Below the pieces are notes generated by a model. That model was not told the origin of the DNA. It saw only the letters and a program-made list of their open reading frames with translations, and did not search any database. This document shows, piece by piece, positions 4,868 to 22,328 of a stretch of DNA of 23,213 bases. Made by a program: the position numbers and the translations under genes. This DNA is from a virus, in the IMG/VR virus record IMGVR_UViG_3300042691_015007, positions 1-23,213 of that record. One strand, written 5' to 3'. Every line of letters starts with the position of its first letter. Within the stretch, counting starts at the first letter, position 1.

Positions 4868-5517
4868 TATTTATTCTCCGAAAGTTGCTTCTTCAGTTCT
4901 GCGAAGCGATTGCGAACCCGGTCGTAAAGATCGGGGTGACTTACTTTGAGCCCATCAAGCTGAGCCTGATTGGCCTTCCAGTAACTGTTTAAACCTTTGA
5001 CGTCAGTGCAATGGTTTGTGTATGTCATCATTCCTTCAGCAAACAACTCTGCGTTTGCATCTGCCTGTCCAGTGTTGACCTGAACATCTGCCATCGCAGT
5101 GCCGTCTGGAGTCACGGCCTTGACGATTACAGGCTCTACTGCGTTGTCCTCTGGCAAATCCTCACCCGCATAGATATACAGGCCCAATCCGTGTAGCGCC
5201 AAGCCCTTGGTCATGCATCGCATGATGGAGGTGTTGACCTGAAAGGAGTCAGGGTTCTGGATCGGTTGGTTGCGGTGGTTCATCACCGGGAGGAAGCATG
5301 TCATTGGCTTGCCAAACATGGTGACGGTGACCCACACCATGCCCGTGCCGTTTACATCCATGTACGGCTTGCCGTCAAAGGTCTGCACTTCAAACGTGGC
5401 GGCAGGGTCGGCCTTCAAAGCTTCTGCCCATGCCCATGCCCATGACAGGTAGGACAGGTTTTGCTTCTTCTCAACGTGGTCGTTGACGTTCAGCTTCAAC
5501 AGGTCAAGCTGGGACAT
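4867..5517 (-). CDS. Sak/DUF1071-type single-strand annealing protein
   Basis: 216 residues. The N-terminal block NLSYLSWAWAWAEALKADP (residues 20-38) and the following FEVQTFDGKPYMDVNGTGMV, VWVTVTMFGK, then NTSIMRCMTKGLALHGLGLY are characteristic of DUF1071/Sak-type annealing proteins, which belong to the RecT/Redbeta/Erf recombination functions. It would anneal complementary strands produced by the exonuclease encoded just upstream. Start 5517 has AAGGAG. The ATG at 5607 would add 30 residues but would overlap the exonuclease gene by over 100 bases. One GTTTAAAC (4987-4994) lies in it, using a TTA leucine codon. Confidence 0.8.
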   Translation of the reverse strand: MSQLDLLKLNVNDHVEKKQNLSYLSWAWAWAEALKADPAATFEVQTFDGKPYMDVNGTGMVWVTVTMFGKPMTCFLPVMNHRNQPIQNPDSFQVNTSIMRCMTKGLALHGLGLYIYAGEDLPEDNAVEPVIVKAVTPDGTAMADVQVNTGQADANAELFAEGMMTYTNHCTDVKGLNSYWKANQAQLDGLKVSHPDLYDRVRNRFAELKKQLSENK

Positions 5518-10934: not shown

Positions 10935-11149
10935 GCTGTCTCTCCTTGTGGCCCATATGAGCGGGTCTCGTCAGTTGCGGGTTCGTTCAGTTCGATGGAC
11001 TCCACCTCCCAATCGGCAGATTCTGTGCCATACGAACCGTCTGATGCCAGTTCTTGCCAAGCCAATTCCTCGGCCTCATCAATGTTCTCGGCCTCGATGG
11101 TCAGGTTGACGTAGGAGGTGCGCCTCAATTCGATCTGGTAAGTTTTCAT
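10931..11149 (-). CDS. DpnD/PcfM-like small protein
   Basis: 72 residues: MKTYQIELRRTSYVNLTIEA then ENIDEAEELAWQELASDGSY, and a second strand WEVESIELNE. The pattern strand, strand ending in 'EA', 'DEAEELA' helix and final strand matches the small DpnD/PcfM-type proteins found in phages and plasmids, whose function is not established. Its upstream neighbour has the same layout, and both end in GETA, so they are probably tandem paralogs. ATGA overlaps on both sides. Confidence 0.55.
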   Translation of the reverse strand: MKTYQIELRRTSYVNLTIEAENIDEAEELAWQELASDGSYGTESADWEVESIELNEPATDETRSYGPQGETA

Positions 11150-11319
11150 GCTGTTTCTCCAATCAGTTCAATGTCGTAAACCTCGCCCTCACCCTGCACA
11201 CAGGCTCGGGTTGGGTCGAACCAGTCAAGGGCCGTGGCCCCCGCCTCTTCTTTGCTTGCGGCCTCCACCTCAATGGTCTGCCAGTAAGACATCACCACCT
11301 GCACTTTGTATTTGCTCAT
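11146..11319 (-). CDS. DpnD/PcfM-like small protein, paralog
   Basis: 57 residues from the ATG at 11319, preceded by AGGAG: MSKYKVQVVMSYWQTIEVEA then SKEEAGATALDWF and VYDIELIGETA. It has the same strand-strand-helix-strand layout as the next gene, with the matching 'EA..KEEA' junction and an identical GETA terminus. It starts 11 bases after the VWA gene stop. Function unknown. Confidence 0.55.
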   Translation of the reverse strand: MSKYKVQVVMSYWQTIEVEAASKEEAGATALDWFDPTRACVQGEGEVYDIELIGETA

Positions 11320-11330
11320 TTTGCTTCTCC

Positions 11331-12941
11331 TCAAGCGGCAAGCTTGATTTGTTTAAACGAAACAGCACCGATGTCAGCGATGTCATTCACTGCCACGGCG
11401 TTGCCGTAGATGCCAGAGACATCGGCCTTGATGCCGACACCAATGGTTGTCACACCCAGCGCGTTGCCGGACTGGATTTGTTGGCGAACCCCACCGGGGT
11501 TGCCGTACCCGTCAGTGATCACGAAGACCAACTTGCGGTGTTCATTGCGCCGTGCCAGCAACTCATGTGAGTAGCGCAGGGCGGTGTAGTCGTTTGTCCC
11601 ACCAGCAGGGCTGACACGCCCGATCAGGGTGTTGCCCTTGCGATGGTTCATGCCGAAGGGCTTGATCTCAAACACGGCAGACCCGAAGGCCACAACCGCA
11701 GTCTTGACCCCAGCCGCATCAAGCGTCTCCAGCAGGGCACGGCACGTTGCAACAGCAGGGCCAATGCGAGGCTTCTTGCCGTGGTCGTTGTCGAACATCG
11801 AACCCGAGATGTCCAGCAAGATCACAACCGCAGAGTCCACACCCTCCACATCGAGGCGGCGTTTAAACACACGGTCGTTACCAGTGGCCACAGATGGCAG
11901 GGCATGGACGTTGACCACACCAGCCTTGCGGTTGCGGCTGAACTCAGTCAGACCCGAGTTGTCGAACAGGCGCTTGACCTCATAGCGAAGCTTTGCAGGG
12001 ATGGGGGCAGTCTCCAGACCATCCCGCTCGGTGTCCCGAAGGCAACCGCTACCCTTTCGGATTTGCTCGGAGGTGTAGTTGCCCATCACCCCACCGCTGG
12101 GCAGTTTGGGCTCGACCTCCCTTGCCTCGACATCAACAGGGGATTGGACGGGCGCATCAGGGGCCGCAGGAGCCTCTTTGCCCTCTTCCGCACCCTTACC
12201 CTTGTCCTCACCCTGATCGGGGCTTGTAGGCCCATCCTGACCATTTGTAGGGCCATCCTTGGGCTTGCCGGGGCGACCATCGGGCTTGTCGTTGGGCTTG
12301 TCGGGCTTCTGACTCTGTTGCTTGATCTGTTCGTAAACCCACAGAGCAATCTTCAAGGTGTCGGTGCTGGACGTTGCGCTTTCGCACTTCACCGCCGCCA
12401 TGTTAAAGATGGCAGTCAGGCGGGGGTTGCAGGGAACCTTGACAGTGGCGTGTTTACGGCAAGCCACTGCGAGGATGTAGGGGTACTGGCGGGGATCGTT
12501 CCAATCCTTGACGGTCGCCAATGCCTCACGGGTCATGGTGTCGATCAACTCACCCAGCAGGGGGCCGATGTTGCCGAGCAGACCAGAGGCAATCCCGGTG
12601 TTCTCGATCCAGCCATCTTCCACGGCGTTGTGCAGGGTGCGGATGTAGTCGTTATCACCTCTTGCATGGAAGTCGGTGTACTTGTGGTGCAACAGTTCAT
12701 GCACCACATAACCCGCATACTTGACCACCAGCGCACGGCTCACCGTGGAGTCATCAGGGATGCCAGCAAGGTACAGGTTGCCATCCGAGTTGATGCCAGC
12801 GGTCTGGACATCATGCCGCCAGTAGACAGACACACGGCGCAGACCCAGAGAGTTGCCCACCTTGTGGGCGAAGGCCTCCAGACCCAGACGGAACTCAAGG
12901 CCACGCACGGAGGGGCGAGAGAGAATGGTTTCGATGTTCAT
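11331..12941 (-). CDS. CobT-like VWA-domain protein with HExxH motif
   Basis: 536 residues from the ATG at 12941 (GAGG upstream). Residues 1-200 form a helical domain with VVHELLHHKYTDFH (HExxH at 81-85) and HNAVEDGWIE (104-113), a zinc-metallopeptidase-like arrangement known in CobT-type VWA proteins. Residues 205-285 are a low-complexity Pro/Gly/Lys/Asp linker. Residues 365-536 are a von Willebrand factor A domain with the MIDAS motif DISGS (377-381), a distal Thr in GGTNDYT (about 449) and ITDG (Asp477). It follows its MoxR partner by 7 bases. Cobalamin synthesis is not implied; the pair probably remodels a protein target. Confidence 0.8.
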   Translation of the reverse strand: MNIETILSRPSVRGLEFRLGLEAFAHKVGNSLGLRRVSVYWRHDVQTAGINSDGNLYLAGIPDDSTVSRALVVKYAGYVVHELLHHKYTDFHARGDNDYIRTLHNAVEDGWIENTGIASGLLGNIGPLLGELIDTMTREALATVKDWNDPRQYPYILAVACRKHATVKVPCNPRLTAIFNMAAVKCESATSSTDTLKIALWVYEQIKQQSQKPDKPNDKPDGRPGKPKDGPTNGQDGPTSPDQGEDKGKGAEEGKEAPAAPDAPVQSPVDVEAREVEPKLPSGGVMGNYTSEQIRKGSGCLRDTERDGLETAPIPAKLRYEVKRLFDNSGLTEFSRNRKAGVVNVHALPSVATGNDRVFKRRLDVEGVDSAVVILLDISGSMFDNDHGKKPRIGPAVATCRALLETLDAAGVKTAVVAFGSAVFEIKPFGMNHRKGNTLIGRVSPAGGTNDYTALRYSHELLARRNEHRKLVFVITDGYGNPGGVRQQIQSGNALGVTTIGVGIKADVSGIYGNAVAVNDIADIGAVSFKQIKLAA

Positions 12942-12948
12942 GTGAACC

Positions 12949-14406
12949 TCACAGGTATTTTTGAATCTCTGTCTCGTTGATGCAAGACAGGTAGATGGCA
13001 GTGAGACCGGGGAGGGACTCAACTGGTTGACGGGCGGCAATGGTGGATGCCCACGCCTTGTCCACGGGCAAGACCCGCAGGGCACGGACAAACGCAATCA
13101 CAGACCGAATGGAGGGGGCATCAATGACCTCGCCTGTCTGCACCTTCTCACGGGCCACACGCACAGCACCAAGGATGTGGGCGGCAAGCTTGATGTCGCA
13201 CCCAGTGTGGCGCACCACAGCGTCCACCTCGGACATGATGGGGAGGTAGTCGAACTGCACCACACGGGCGAAGCGGTCAACCAGAGCGCTGTTCATCTGG
13301 CGTGTGCCAGCGTAGCGGCCCGAGTCATCACCGTTGCCCAGCGTGTTGTCGGCGGCAAAGACCAGCACACCGGGGGCACGGGTCTGGACAGACCCACCGA
13401 AGGACACGGCGCTGTTGGGCTCAAGGAACCCGTTGAGAGGGGCCAGTTCGCCGGGATCAGCGTTGGTCACCTCATCCAACAGGATCACAGTGGAAGGGTG
13501 TGTGAAGGCGGCAAGGAAGTCACCACGCTTGAACACGGTCTGCCCATTCTCAAGACCCACTGCACCGATGTAATCCTCGACAGAGGTGTACTTGTGGAAG
13601 TTGATGCGTTTAAACGCACGGCCTGTCATGGCGGCAAACTGTCGAGCGGTCTCAGACTTGCCAGTGCCCTTTGGCCCACCGAACCAGACGTTCTCGCCCA
13701 AGTCCTGAGACAGGATCAGGTGCTGGAGGATGTCGGCAGTCCAGATGAAGTTGGGATCAACAGCCGGGGCAGAGGGGTCATTCCAGATGTCCACCTTGAG
13801 GGGGTCACCCTTACGATCCAGCACCTCTACACCAAAAAGCTTCAAGCAGGTCACATTGCCCACCACATGAACAGAGGAAAGGTCTGCGACCACAGACTGA
13901 GCACCAGCGGCCTCGACTGCTTTGCGGAAAGGTGCGAAGGCATCAGCGACAACCTTGTTGACGGCCTCTTCTACCTTACGGTCATCAATCTTGGTCTCGC
14001 CAAGCTTCTTGGCAATGTCCCGAATCTCGGTGCGCAGGGTGTCATCATCCTGAATCCGGGCATTGCGGTCATCTGCCAACTCATCGGACAGTTTCTGGTG
14101 AAACCTCTTGACGGCCTCGATGGCCTTGAGGGCGGCGGCCTCTGCACGGTTTGCAACAGACCCCACGGCATCCACGGCGGCGGTGTCTGCGCCTTGAACA
14201 GCAGACACAGCCACAGGGGTGGCGGCTTTGATGTCGGCGAGGGTCAGGCTGTTGGCCCGGACACAACTGACAAGGTAGTCGGCGGCCTTGCTTTTCTGCT
14301 CGGCTGGTGTGCCGGGGAAAGTGCCACCACCCCGCAGGGCGTAAGCACCCAACACCACACCAATGGGAAGCTTCAAGATTTCGATTTTGATTTGCAGGTC
14401 AGTCAT
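12949..14406 (-). CDS. MoxR/CobS-like AAA+ ATPase
   Basis: 485 residues. The first 200 are Ala-rich and coiled-coil-like (for example AEAAALKAIEAVKRFHQKL). The AAA+ domain follows: Walker A GPKGTGKS (244-251), Walker B VILLDE (307-312), sensor 1 AADN (351-354), an arginine finger region ALVDRF (374-379) and a C-terminal helical lid. This is the MoxR group that works with VWA proteins as a chaperone-like remodelling pair. The ATG at 14406 is preceded by GGAGAA and by GTTTAAAC (14418-14425). It is flanked by SprT-like and VWA genes in one operon. Confidence 0.85.
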   Translation of the reverse strand: MTDLQIKIEILKLPIGVVLGAYALRGGGTFPGTPAEQKSKAADYLVSCVRANSLTLADIKAATPVAVSAVQGADTAAVDAVGSVANRAEAAALKAIEAVKRFHQKLSDELADDRNARIQDDDTLRTEIRDIAKKLGETKIDDRKVEEAVNKVVADAFAPFRKAVEAAGAQSVVADLSSVHVVGNVTCLKLFGVEVLDRKGDPLKVDIWNDPSAPAVDPNFIWTADILQHLILSQDLGENVWFGGPKGTGKSETARQFAAMTGRAFKRINFHKYTSVEDYIGAVGLENGQTVFKRGDFLAAFTHPSTVILLDEVTNADPGELAPLNGFLEPNSAVSFGGSVQTRAPGVLVFAADNTLGNGDDSGRYAGTRQMNSALVDRFARVVQFDYLPIMSEVDAVVRHTGCDIKLAAHILGAVRVAREKVQTGEVIDAPSIRSVIAFVRALRVLPVDKAWASTIAARQPVESLPGLTAIYLSCINETEIQKYL

Positions 14407-14419
14407 TGCAGTTCTCCGT

Positions 14420-14998
14420 TTAAACAAGGTTCAGGACATCGCTGTCCACAGGGCAAGAGGGAAGGCCAAGAGCGGCCCATTTGGAAGTCAGGCGCACGGT
14501 GTAGCCACAAGAGGGGCACACAGCCTTGAGCATGCGAGTGGTCTGCACCTTCTTGGTGTTCATGGTCAGGGCGGCGTGAGGGTAAGGGCCGAGCGAGTCC
14601 ACGATTGCCCCGAAGGTGGGGACGAATGAGGCGGCAGGGCCAGTGGCCTTCCAGCCCTTGGGGCCAGCAGAGGGCTCAAGATGCATCTTCTGGGCGATGC
14701 TCTGGAAGTTGACCCCGTGGTTCATGGCCCCGGCAGTCGAGTGGCAGAGTTCATGCACCAACACATCGAACACCCGCAGGGGGTCATCCAGCACAGGGCT
14801 GATCAAGACCTCGAAGGTTGCATCAGCAGAGGCGGTGTCTGCCCAGCACTCACCGATGGCCCCACTGCGTTTGGCGTTGGACGGGAAGCCGCACGAAACA
14901 CGAACGTTCGTTGGCAAGGGTGAGCACACCGCATCAAAGAAGGGGCGCAGTTCAGAGACGGCGGCAGAGAGCCAGTCTTCACGGTTGTTGATTGTCAT
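14420..14998 (-). CDS. SprT-like zinc metalloprotease
   Basis: 192 residues. VLVHELCHSTAG holds HExxH (82-86), with a possible third ligand His94 in AMNHGVNF. The C-terminus has CPSCGYTVRL (Cys161, Cys164) and SCP (Cys182), a zinc-ribbon-like end lacking an obvious fourth Cys. The layout is that of SprT/Spartan-type proteases, which in cells degrade DNA-protein crosslinks. In this phage it could clear proteins from DNA before packaging. Its stop codon TAA lies inside a GTTTAAAC site, and the MoxR gene starts 13 bases later. The HELCH motif and zinc end are seen; the substrate is inference. Confidence 0.75.
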   Translation of the reverse strand: MTINNREDWLSAAVSELRPFFDAVCSPLPTNVRVSCGFPSNAKRSGAIGECWADTASADATFEVLISPVLDDPLRVFDVLVHELCHSTAGAMNHGVNFQSIAQKMHLEPSAGPKGWKATGPAASFVPTFGAIVDSLGPYPHAALTMNTKKVQTTRMLKAVCPSCGYTVRLTSKWAALGLPSCPVDSDVLNLV

Positions 14999-15031
14999 TG
15001 CAATTCTCCTGTGCTAGTGATTGTAAAGGGT

Positions 15032-15346
15032 TTAAACCGAAGGGGTCAAGATGGTGTTGAAACGATCAGACCCGACACGCTCAATGAGGGCATCGATCTG
15101 TTGCTGGGCGAGGCCACGAATCTCACGCAGGGTCATGCCCTTGCTGGCAACGGGCATCCCTTTGAACTGTCCGACAACGTGAAGCACCTTGCCGCCAGAG
15201 CGGGGGTCAGACACAGCCCAGAAGCCGAGGTTGTCCCGGTGCAGGTGGAGGGTGTGGGTCACAGACCCAGCATGGCAGACCAGCAGGTGTGACTTGACGG
15301 TCTCGATTTCAGAGCCGTCCTTGCGGCGCAGGGTGATGGTAGGCAT
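15032..15346 (-). CDS. hypothetical 104-aa protein
   Basis: 104 residues, beta-rich N-terminus (MPTITLRRKDGSEIETVKSH, then LHRDNLGFWAVSDPRSG), a GMPVASKGMTLREIRGLAQQ linker and a C-terminal helix. It starts with MPT after a CACCTGAAAGGAACC leader. The stop TAA is again embedded in GTTTAAAC (15030-15037). It lies between the SprT-like gene and the repeated hairpin element. Not recognised. Confidence 0.65.
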   Translation of the reverse strand: MPTITLRRKDGSEIETVKSHLLVCHAGSVTHTLHLHRDNLGFWAVSDPRSGGKVLHVVGQFKGMPVASKGMTLREIRGLAQQQIDALIERVGSDRFNTILTPSV

Positions 15347-15369
15347 AGGTTCCTTTCAGGTGTTTAAAC

Positions 15370-15411
15370 GGATTGCACTCCAATGCCCGGCAGGGCATCA
15401 GGCTGAAATCA
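15370..15411 (-). ncRNA. repeated intercistronic hairpin element, copy 3
   Basis: Begins at the stop codon of the 93-aa gene. On the minus strand it reads GATTTCAGCCTGA, the hairpin ATGCCC-TGCC-GGGCAT, then TTGGAGTGCAATCC, and lies ahead of the 104-aa gene. The stem differs from copy 2 by a compensating base-pair change, while the flanks are conserved, so RNA structure is being kept. Confidence 0.6.
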
Positions 15412-15690
15412 GGCGGCGGTCAGTACGTCACGGATGGTCAGGCCAGTGGCACGTTTGACGATCAGGTCAGGCCAGTCACCCAATGGCAGGGCAGACAGTT
15501 GCTCAAGCATCAGGTCAACGTTGTCTTGAGAGCGCAGGACACGGGCAACGTGCTGGGCTTGCTGGTGGGTGACCATTGCACGGGTCAGCACCTCGAAGTT
15601 GGTGCTGGATGGGTTTTTGTTGAACTCACGCTGGGCTGTCTTGAGGGCAGACAGGGCGAAGGACTGAACGTAGGACAGGGTGATTTGCAT
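15409..15690 (-). CDS. hypothetical 93-aa helical protein
   Basis: The ATG at 15690 is chosen (MQITLSYVQSFALSALKTAQ); upstream codons fall in the repeated hairpin element. The protein is all-helical (FNKNPSSTNFEVLTRAMVTH, QAQHVARVLRSQDNVDLMLE) with a final segment of short helix. It is one of three tiny genes heading the MoxR-VWA operon, each preceded by the same hairpin element. Possible adaptor or regulator; not recognised. Confidence 0.6.
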   Translation of the reverse strand: MQITLSYVQSFALSALKTAQREFNKNPSSTNFEVLTRAMVTHQQAQHVARVLRSQDNVDLMLEQLSALPLGDWPDLIVKRATGLTIRDVLTAA

Positions 15691-15710
15691 GATGGTCTCC
15701 AAAGGGTGCG

Positions 15711-15751
15711 GGATTGCACTCCAAAGCCCAGAGGGCTTCAGGCTGAAATCA
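15711..15751 (-). ncRNA. repeated intercistronic hairpin element, copy 2
   Basis: Starts at the stop codon of the 52-aa gene: GATTTCAGCCTGA, the hairpin AAGCCC-TCT-GGGCTT, then TTGGAGTGCAATCC, ahead of the 93-aa gene. Compared with the other copies the second stem pair is A-T instead of T-A, a covariation that keeps pairing. Confidence 0.6.
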
Positions 15752-15907
15752 AGCGTAGGAATCAGCAACCATCAGACGGGCAACCAAAAGGGTGTCATCT
15801 TTCGACAACAACATGGATGCGAAGGGGTGCTTGCGGTCATAGGCCAGCACTGCGAGGGCGTTGGCATCAGTGGGGTTGGCACGGTATCGGTCAATGAGTT
15901 TTTGCAT
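15749..15907 (-). CDS. hypothetical 52-aa protein
   Basis: The ATG at 15907 follows GGAGACCC. 52 residues (MQKLIDRYRANPTDANALAV then YDRKHPFASMLLSKDDTLLV and ARLMVADSYA), helical, with a repeated 'R..NP....N...L' feel shared with the 93-aa protein (FNKNPSSTNFEVL). They may be diverged paralogs. It is the first gene of the leftward operon after a long structured leader. Confidence 0.55.
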   Translation of the reverse strand: MQKLIDRYRANPTDANALAVLAYDRKHPFASMLLSKDDTLLVARLMVADSYA

Positions 15908-16112
15908 GGGGTCTCCAATCAGTGCAAGATGGCACTGCAATGCCCACAGCATGGGCATCACGTTGGCATCTCATAGGGGATGTTTTATCTACCGTCACGG
16001 TGGACAGGTACAGGGCTTGAACCCTGTCTGACTTGCTCCCGGACTTCCTCCGGGTTTCGCCTCAGACCGACCGTATCGTGGGCCGTTCACATCAGCACTA
16101 TTGCTAGTGCAT
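15908..16112 (-). ncRNA. structured 5' leader of the MoxR-VWA operon
   Basis: If transcription begins near 16112, the leader is about 205 nt with successive hairpins: GCACTA-GCAA-TAGTGC (16095-16110, GNRA-type loop at the very 5' end), CCCGGA-GGAAG-TCCGGG (16038-16054), ACAGGG-TTCAAG-CCCTGT (16010-16027), ACCGT-G-ACGGT (15991-16001) and finally the repeated element. The density of perfect stems suggests a regulatory RNA. It is not a tRNA: the TTCAAG loop has six bases and no acceptor stem is found. Confidence 0.5.
15928..15960 (-). ncRNA. repeated hairpin element, copy 1 (in leader)
   Basis: TGATGCCCA-TGCTG-TGGGCAT followed by TGCAGTGCCATC, in front of the first gene (ATG 15907). It matches copies 2 and 3 in stem type and in the AGTGCNATC tail, but lacks the CAGCC block. 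It is the most diverged of the three. Confidence 0.5.
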
Positions 16113-16214: not shown

Positions 16215-16448
16215 CAGTGCCAGATGCACTGCATCTATATATGTTGGGTGCATTCTGGTGAGTTGGACTAAAAAGTACTAATGTGAAAGTGAGTACTTTC
16301 GTTAAGTATAAGCAAGTACTGATATTCGTTAAAACGATCAGGAAGAGGGGTCAAACGACTTCCTAGGGGGGTAGTGGCGGGTAAGGGTCAAAGTGGCTGG
16401 AAGGGCCGTTTAAATCGATTTTAGAGCCATGTATGTTTATACAGTACT
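16215..16448. repeat. A/T-rich control DNA with palindromes and AGTACT repeats
   Basis: Part of the 739-bp gene-free region (15908-16646). It contains overlapping inverted repeats CAGTGC-CAGAT-GCACTG (16215-16231) and AGATGC-ACT-GCATCT (16222-16236). AGTACT occurs at 16274, 16292, 16315 and 16443, three within 47 bp, and GAAAGT-GAGT-ACTTTC lies at 16285-16300. TTCGTTAA occurs twice nearby. It could serve as an unwinding or protein-binding region beside the DnaA-like boxes; no gene was seen. Confidence 0.45.
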
Positions 16449-16497: not shown

Positions 16498-16592
16498 TGT
16501 GGATAAAGCTGGGGATAAGCTGTGGACAGAGTTATCCACAGTATCCACAGGTGGTTGTGGACAAGTTGACGTTATCCACAGGCTGTGGATAA
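16498..16592. other. cluster of DnaA-box-like sequences, possible replication origin
   Basis: Four exact TTATCCACA boxes (16498-16506 reverse, 16532-16540 forward, 16572-16580 forward, 16584-16592 reverse) and at least three near matches (GTATCCACA at 16541, TGTGGACAG at 16521, TGTGGACAA at 16556) lie within 95 bp. Two boxes form the inverted pair TTATCCACA-GGC-TGTGGATAA. Host DnaA binds this 9-mer. The site sits between divergent operons next to A/T-rich DNA, as in an origin, but origin activity is inferred. Confidence 0.6.
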
Positions 16593-21743: not shown

Positions 21744-21937
21744 TGGACCACCAAATACTTGAGCACATCAGCAAAAAGCTGAGAGAGCGTGAGGTGGAGA
21801 TTGCAAGAGTTGTGGGTGACGGAGGGTGCAAGTCCTTCGATCACTACAAAGAACTGTGTGGTTTTATTCGGGGTCTTCAGACCGCGCAGTTTGAAATTGA
21901 AGACCTCGTCCGAAAAATAAAGGTAAACGATGACTGA
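21743..21937 (+). CDS. hypothetical 64-aa protein between portal and GroES-like gene
   Basis: 64 residues (MDHQILEHISKKLREREVEI then ARVVGDGGCKSFDHYKELCG and FIRGLQTAQFEIEDLVRKI), all-helical. Short genes of the '..F..Y....G...GL..A...I.DL' type often lie just after the portal in phages and are of unknown function. The start shares the last base of the portal stop, and the end overlaps the next gene by 8 bases. Confidence 0.65.
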   Translation: MDHQILEHISKKLREREVEIARVVGDGGCKSFDHYKELCGFIRGLQTAQFEIEDLVRKIKVNDD

Positions 21938-22328
21938 CTTTAACGTGCAGGCCGTGGACCTGTCTGGCATTCTCAACCAGCCGGTTGCAGACAAAGCCAA
22001 ACAGATTCCCGATCCAGCGACTTATCACCTCCTGTGCATGCTTCCAGAGGCGAAAGAAGAATACGAGGGTGGATTGCTCAAATCCAGTCAGACGATGCAG
22101 TTTGAAGAACTGCTGTCGCCCGTACTCTTCGTTGCCAAGATTGGACCGGATGCATTTAAAGACGAGAAACGCTTCCCAAGCGGGCCAAGTTGCAAGGTTG
22201 GTGACTTTGTTCTGGTACGACCCAACAGTGGCACCCGGATGAAAATCCACGGCACTGAGTGGCGACTCATCAACGATGACTCAGTTGAGGCCGTGGTGGA
22301 AGACCCACGCGGCATTCAACGCCCATAA
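21930..22328 (+). CDS. GroES-like (co-chaperonin fold) phage protein
   Basis: 132 residues. The C-terminal part reads CKVGDFVLVRPNSGTRMKIH then GTEWRLINDDSVEAVVEDP, which corresponds to the GroES pattern 'VGD.V.......G......G.EY.......I.AV'. The N-terminal half (GILNQPVADKAKQIPDP...YHLLCMLPE) contains 'YHLLCMLPEAKEEYEGG', comparable to 'R.LV.....E.....GGI' of GroES. Phage co-chaperonins such as T4 gp31 help host GroEL fold the capsid protein, and this gene sits just ahead of the probable scaffold and capsid genes. The call is pattern-based. Confidence 0.6.
   Translation: MTDFNVQAVDLSGILNQPVADKAKQIPDPATYHLLCMLPEAKEEYEGGLLKSSQTMQFEELLSPVLFVAKIGPDAFKDEKRFPSGPSCKVGDFVLVRPNSGTRMKIHGTEWRLINDDSVEAVVEDPRGIQRP

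Follow-up and report, generated by a model that had tools for sequence, protein, structure and literature searches.

The window analysed here is the complete viral contig IMGVR_UViG_3300042691_015007 of a freshwater phage, 23,213 bases long. It carries an operon coding for an SprT-like protease, a MoxR/CobS-type AAA+ ATPase and a VWA protein with an N-terminal HExxH domain. Sequence comparison and structure prediction suggest that the operon encodes an ATP-driven remodeller with a metallopeptidase partner, which would probably work in phage DNA replication or recombination, and we give this reading about an even chance. The sequences or the models showed the operon and its conservation, intact motifs for the ATPase, the MIDAS (metal ion-dependent adhesion site) and the zinc sites, and predicted folds of the peptidase-like and VWA types. 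An earlier note, made from the DNA letters alone, had described the three genes as an operon, and the operon was present, on the minus strand, with its motifs HELCH, HELLH and HNAVED. The note had also proposed a remodelling machine of the MoxR-VWA type and pointed to two potential zinc proteases, which agrees with the peptidase-like model, the invariant site and the trio that is fixed in the lineage. Relatives were viral contigs retrieved with each of the three proteins (SprT, MoxR and VWA) as query.

The VWA protein (536 residues, positions 11331 to 12941, minus strand) matched VWA_2 at 5.8e-13 and CobT_C at 1.8e-7. The start at 13097 is merely the first start codon of the long open frame, and translation likely begins at the ATG at 12941, 7 bases past the MoxR stop, from where the relatives align. 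A model of the whole protein retrieved VWA folds alone, and therefore the N-terminal domain was predicted and searched separately. Residues 1 to 212 (12306 to 12941, minus strand), modelled by AlphaFold2 with a local confidence (pLDDT) of 94.7 and a global one (pTM) of 0.90, are probably a gluzincin-like zinc-peptidase domain. Within what a fold model can show, nothing spoke against the HExxH site, and the N-domain model resembles zinc peptidases. The HELLH motif (residues 81-85, 12687 to 12701) lies within helix 69-88 and HNAVED (residues 104-109, 12615 to 12632) within helix 98-119, as in the gluzincin-type pair of an HExxH helix and a downstream Glu helix. H81, E82 and H85 of the first motif and H104, N105, E108 and D109 of the second were invariant, and E108 is the probable third metal ligand. 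HExxH...HNxxED was kept in 46/46 N-domains of the lineage and the trio had the same order in 39/39 loci, so that the HExxH of the VWA protein is not a chance occurrence. The structural neighbours were BepA (Z 7.2), ERAP1 (6.6), selecase (6.6), jannalysin (6.4) and BlaR1 (5.8). Most of the top rows were zinc gluzincins (BepA, M1 aminopeptidases, minigluzincins, BlaR1), every Z being below 8, a range where chance resemblance is common. The likeness of the modelled domain to the gluzincins is good, short of decisive.

In the C-terminal domain, the MIDAS motif DxSxS (D377-S381, 11799 to 11813, minus strand) is completed by T449 and D477, and D377, S379, S381, T449 and D477 were all invariant in the lineage alignment. 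The domain was closest to the Rea1/Mdn1 MIDAS domain (Z 22.6) and the NorD VWA domain (Z 18.7). Both are partners of AAA rings, and MIDAS-type VWA domains work with MoxR rings. In three relatives (L039, L041 and L043) the gene is naturally split into an HExxH protein (frame of 307-311 residues) and a VWA protein (frame of 221 residues), the two frames being joined in L041 by TAAGGAGACCCATG. The two parts of the VWA protein are therefore able to work as separate chains. The cobT of HHTV-2 has also been reported as split in two (PMC8651126). Among viral proteins, the N-domain fold recurred in ones annotated as CobT or VWFA, and one of these is from HHTV-2.

The MoxR/CobS-type ATPase (485 residues, 12949 to 14406, minus strand) matched AAA_5 at 2.5e-14 and PHROG 249 at 1.8e-41. 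Its start codon is the ATG at 14406, not the TTG at 14427. It has a Walker A motif (GGPKGTGKSE), a Walker B motif (LLDE), the sensor-1 Asn and a DRF motif, and the residues K250, D311, E312, N354 and D377-R378-F379 were 100% conserved in the lineage. An AAA_5-type ATPase with intact Walker A and B motifs thus adjoins the VWA gene, as is expected of a MoxR-VWA pair.

The SprT-like metalloprotease (192 residues, 14420 to 14998, minus strand) matched PHROG 6361 at 3.7e-38. Its HELCH motif at residues 82-86 (14741 to 14755) and the third His, residue 94 in NHGVNF, are in invariant columns of alignment A2. Among 73 relatives, 71 kept HExxH..HG and all 73 the C-terminal zinc ribbon CxxC...C. The protein shares HExxH...HG..F and the C-terminal zinc ribbon with SprT/Spartan and PHROG 6361, and related phage genes are annotated SprT-like. 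Unlike SprT/Spartan, it missed the cut-off of the Pfam family SprT-like (PF10263), with 17.1 against 25.6 bits, and several other phages have a protein of the PHROG 6361 type and no VWA partner for it. Against solved structures it gave a weak minigluzincin match (E 0.88).

On the minus strand, three small open reading frames (ORFs) are followed by SprT, MoxR, VWA and further small ORFs. The operon is tight, its junctions being 14420 (end of SprT) to 14406 (start of MoxR) and 12949 (end of MoxR) to 12941 (start of VWA). The order SprT, MoxR, VWA on a single strand was found in all 39 distinct loci, the count taking in SprT genes followed by 3.2 kb of sequence or more, and the expectation that the three genes are conserved together was borne out. 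What looked like an insert separating MoxR from VWA in L122-L125 was an artefact of the alignment segments; the VWA frame of L123 (9484-11262) starts soon after MoxR.

SprT is a lineage-specific companion of MoxR-VWA. In searches of whole records, phages of Microbacterium, Dinoroseobacter and Pseudomonas (Persinger) had SprT but no VWA protein, and the reverse, VWA but no SprT, held for cyanophage, Roseobacter, Zobellviridae and Microcystis phages and for an E. coli plasmid. Bordetella phage CN1 had SprT plus a separate, distant VWA match. The idea that SprT and MoxR-VWA make up one functional unit in general was not upheld, as each is found elsewhere without the other.

By its sequence the VWA protein is homologous to CobT. 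Its profile found the aerobic cobaltochelatase CobT (9uka_G of the PDB) at 1e-18, with homology across much of the length and a VWA C-terminus likewise. Where the window protein has HExxH, 9uka_G has D..ALR-type residues and reads GDSMALR in a weak alignment. In an alphaproteobacterial sample, 0/20 canonical CobT genes had HExxH in the first 260 residues of the frame, and where the region was displayed it read RG..D..ALR or near it. This check is weaker for L160, and less so for L169, whose frames have an upstream extension. HExxH was present in cyanophage S-RIM8 gp150, in Microcystis, Roseobacter (CRP-810), Zobellviridae and Gordonia/Rhodococcus phages, and in a 110-kb E. coli plasmid and three other plasmids, conjugative-plasmid homologues included.

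The pair scored far under the equivalog cut-offs: 22.8 bits against 759.05 for CobT (TIGR01651) and 57.9 against 558.55 for CobS (TIGR01650). The N-terminal CobT family PF06213 had no match in the window record and weak matches in 4/37 lineage members (best 4e-5). Because the pair is so far under the CobS/CobT cut-offs, a role in vitamin B12 synthesis is unlikely. The view of the earlier note that a cobalamin label does not fit was thus supported by the low equivalog scores and by the canonical CobT without HExxH.

Two of these homologues deserve a separate description. Gp150 of cyanophage S-RIM8 (L148:3115-5232), near cobS, carries HEVGH...NVLEDARIE and a VWA-like DWSGS, and from its sequence it is the probable partner of the cyanophage 'cobS' that is counted as a B12 gene. 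The 'CobT' of the 110-kb non-mobilizable E. coli plasmid p009_B (L153:4926-7034) has DHEVAH...NALED and adjoins an AAA ATPase and dnaE.

A metallopeptidase-type MoxR-VWA machine was previously proposed for jumbo phages, and the phage trio is a further variant of it. Iyer et al. (2021) suggested that MoxR with a metallopeptidase-vWA protein serves virion assembly in these phages (PMC7824862). The plan in common with their group 2.2 is a MoxR gene beside a vWA gene with an N-terminal metallopeptidase, a likeness drawn by domain plan. In contrast to these jumbo phages, the phages of the window lineage have about 60 kb, an SprT gene in the operon and replication genes nearby. The p618 (MoxR) and p892 (VWA) proteins of ATV are likewise a viral MoxR-VWA pair, described without a peptidase domain (PMC7824862). 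Plasmid MoxR-DUF3150-VWA modules share MoxR and the HExxH-VWA protein, with an extra DUF3150 gene and no SprT within the stretch seen.

The phage and archaeal-virus cobST clusters, cyanophage cobS included, contain a homologous pair, and S-RIM8 gp150 shares the plan of HEVGH...NVLED plus VWA. Liu et al. (2021) proposed that cobST serves the production of cobalamin, and in their view it is an error to annotate cyanophage cobT as a peptidase (PMC8651126). Whereas these clusters were read as a cobaltochelatase (PMC8651126), the HExxH that is missing from canonical CobT argues here for a peptidase-type machine. Phage MinM2 uses the DUF2201 metallopeptidase/VWA family in its MoxR module instead; its protein matches both DUF2201 families of Pfam (PF13203 and PF09967), and the window VWA protein matches neither. 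In this terminase relative the MoxR-DUF3150-DUF2201 module (L143:4271-8728), likewise without SprT in the stretch seen, stands as if one machine had replaced another.

How the machine might work can be outlined. The MoxR protein would assemble into an ATP-driven AAA+ ring and hand its substrate to the VWA protein, an adaptor bearing the zinc peptidase. The MIDAS domain of this adaptor would dock on the ring or capture the substrate, and the gluzincin-like N-domain would cut or nick whatever the ring remodels. SprT would add a second zinc protease, distinct from the first, bearing a zinc ribbon and co-expressed in the lineage. By analogy to the Spartan/SprT enzymes it probably acts on DNA-bound protein, and it may do so jointly with MoxR-VWA. 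The likeliest target would be a protein that is bound to DNA or associated with replication or recombination while the phage genome is being copied.

The window codes for a Sak annealing protein, a PD-(D/E)XK exonuclease, a RusA-like nuclease, a Toprim/DnaB-type primase-helicase, a terminase, a portal and a GroES-like protein, the first four being near the trio. Elsewhere, homologous or similar pairs have RecT/lambda-exonuclease, dnaE, clamp/clamp-loader, polymerase/primase and RadC genes as neighbours. The suggestion that proteins are extracted from DNA fits these neighbours, and the substrate may be DNA-related.

Several points weigh against this reading. Early genes of phages cluster anyway, and the replication neighbours, counted without a random expectation, are weak evidence. 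SprT and MoxR-VWA were found apart in other elements, and the Z-scores of the N-domain fall into the range of chance resemblance named above. Two SprT relatives (frames L122:5900 and L124:3473) read HGLCA for HELCH and have lost the SprT HExxH, with the HExxH of VWA still intact in this group. The HGLCA homologues are likely inactive judging by this motif, which does not support the assumption that SprT catalysis is needed. Activity, metal binding and complex formation are predictions from sequence and model. In addition, when proteins of a near-identical relative of 58 kb were scanned, none was identified as a head-maturation protease, and a role in the virion thus has some room.

A virion-assembly chaperone-protease, in which MoxR-VWA assembles head or tail proteins and its peptidase matures them, would be the analogy to the published proposal for the group 2.2 jumbo phages (PMC7824862) and to ATV p618/p892, which were linked to the extracellular tail development of this archaeal virus (PMC4124505). 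That no dedicated head-maturation protease was identified among the scanned proteins of the 58-kb relative also fits it. Against it stand five phages that share the terminase and the GroES-to-capsid block, HTVC023P, HTVC027P, 023Pt_psg01, DSL-LC04 and CRP-901. Neither the VWA nor the SprT profile matched anywhere in their whole records, and no AAA_5 domain passed the cut-off, and therefore their capsid module does not need the trio. Further, the operon and the late genes are on opposite strands, and similar pairs occur on conjugative plasmids, which have no virions. The relatives with this terminase and head block argue, by their gene content, against an essential role of the trio in virion assembly, and we consider a virion function unlikely. 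The data favour Iyer et al. (2021) on the chemistry, not on the virion role for this phage group.

The MoxR-VWA pair could also be a pure chaperone, with an HExxH domain that binds metal or substrate and does not cut. Canonical CobT functions although this domain is degenerate in it, and the Z-scores of the N-domain were merely moderate, but the catalytic-type Glu E82, needless for metal binding alone, was invariant, and we find this explanation rather improbable.

It is similarly improbable that the proteases remove host proteins in host takeover or anti-defence. Two proteases within one phage operon would suit such a role, and for the SprT-like proteases of jumbo phages, which differ from phage to phage, cleavage of host proteins has been suggested (PMC7824862). 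On the other side, the trio order was fixed in the 39 loci and not patchy, and relatives of the pair are common to cyanophages and plasmids of very different hosts. No evidence was found for the takeover or anti-defence function that the earlier note had considered.

The published proposal that viral CobST joins host CobN and raises cobalamin production (PMC8651126) builds on real homology to CobT and CobS, but it was rejected as highly improbable by the low scores, by the phage-kept zinc site that canonical CobT lacks and by the genes of the window, none of which was seen as a cobalamin gene.

Of the remaining features of the operon, the three small upstream genes announced before do exist, but homologues were found in only part of the lineage. 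They code on the minus strand for 104 residues (15032 to 15346), 93 residues (15409 to 15690) and, from the ATG at 15907, 52 residues (15749 to 15907), the first two without a known family. Alike leaders with the repeats D1, D2 and D4 and GCCC...GGGC hairpins precede consecutive small ORFs at 15370-15949, which suggests a tandem duplication of small gene units. Closely 3' of the VWA gene, an ORF of 57 residues (11146 to 11319, minus strand) gave a weak DpnD/PcfM-like match. A promoter scan gave no excess above shuffled sequences.

The trio operon is divergent from the terminase genes. The gap between the operon and the terminase gene TerS holds a cluster of four exact DnaA boxes TTATNCACA at 16498 to 16592, no further than 150 bp upstream of TerS, whereas 0.33 exact boxes were expected in the entire window. 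All 77 distinct relatives (77/77) had one exact box or more within the 350 bp that lie upstream of TerS, where the density was 8.76 per kb; elsewhere it was 0.031 per kb. By sequence, the cluster may mark an origin of replication or a promoter under DnaA control. Beside it, four AGTACT hexamers lie in AT-rich stretches at 16274-16448; they were not consistently present among the relatives checked. A stretch at 15990-16060 contains the tRNA T-arm-like GGTTCAAGCCC, for which ARAGORN and Rfam gave no match.

The palindrome GTTTAAAC occurred 13 times in the window, with 0.2 expected, at positions 4987, 6554, 6918, 8350, 9206, 11351, 11861, 13608, 14418, 15030, 15362, 16606 and 17503. Six of the 13 sites are not wholly coding, though about 90% of the window codes. 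Among the relatives tested, nearly all had it as their top 8-bp palindrome; L112 and L114 had no copy, and ATTTAAAT was raised instead (6 and 3 copies, respectively).

The relative L006 (58,443 bases) carries genes identical to those of the window. The nearest terminases are those of phage DSL-LC04 and of HTVC023P-type pelagiphages. A gene for a GroES-like co-chaperonin lies in the head region (21930-22328; PHROG 3188, 1.6e-7) and is likewise annotated in the terminase relatives. Scanning the window with Rfam and a tRNA search gave no match, and neither did a DNA-level search with the trio among phage records. A scan of genome contigs from about 85,000 genomes returned a single distant relative, so no prophage or host could be assigned.

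Phage CobS and CobT are frequently counted as vitamin B12 auxiliary metabolic genes in virus surveys. As a tentative idea that we think doubtful, canonical CobT might be a descendant that lost the zinc site of a MoxR-VWA metalloprotease with which mobile elements clear or edit proteins on replicating or recombining DNA. If this were true, the 'cobS' genes of hundreds of cyanophage records would be wrongly counted as B12 genes. With a conserved zinc site in the phage partner and none in true CobT, the question of protease machine or chelatase is directly testable, and the homologous pair on the 110-kb E. coli plasmid is a tractable system for a laboratory strain. It would offer a handle on a viral AAA+ protease other than Clp, Lon and FtsH.

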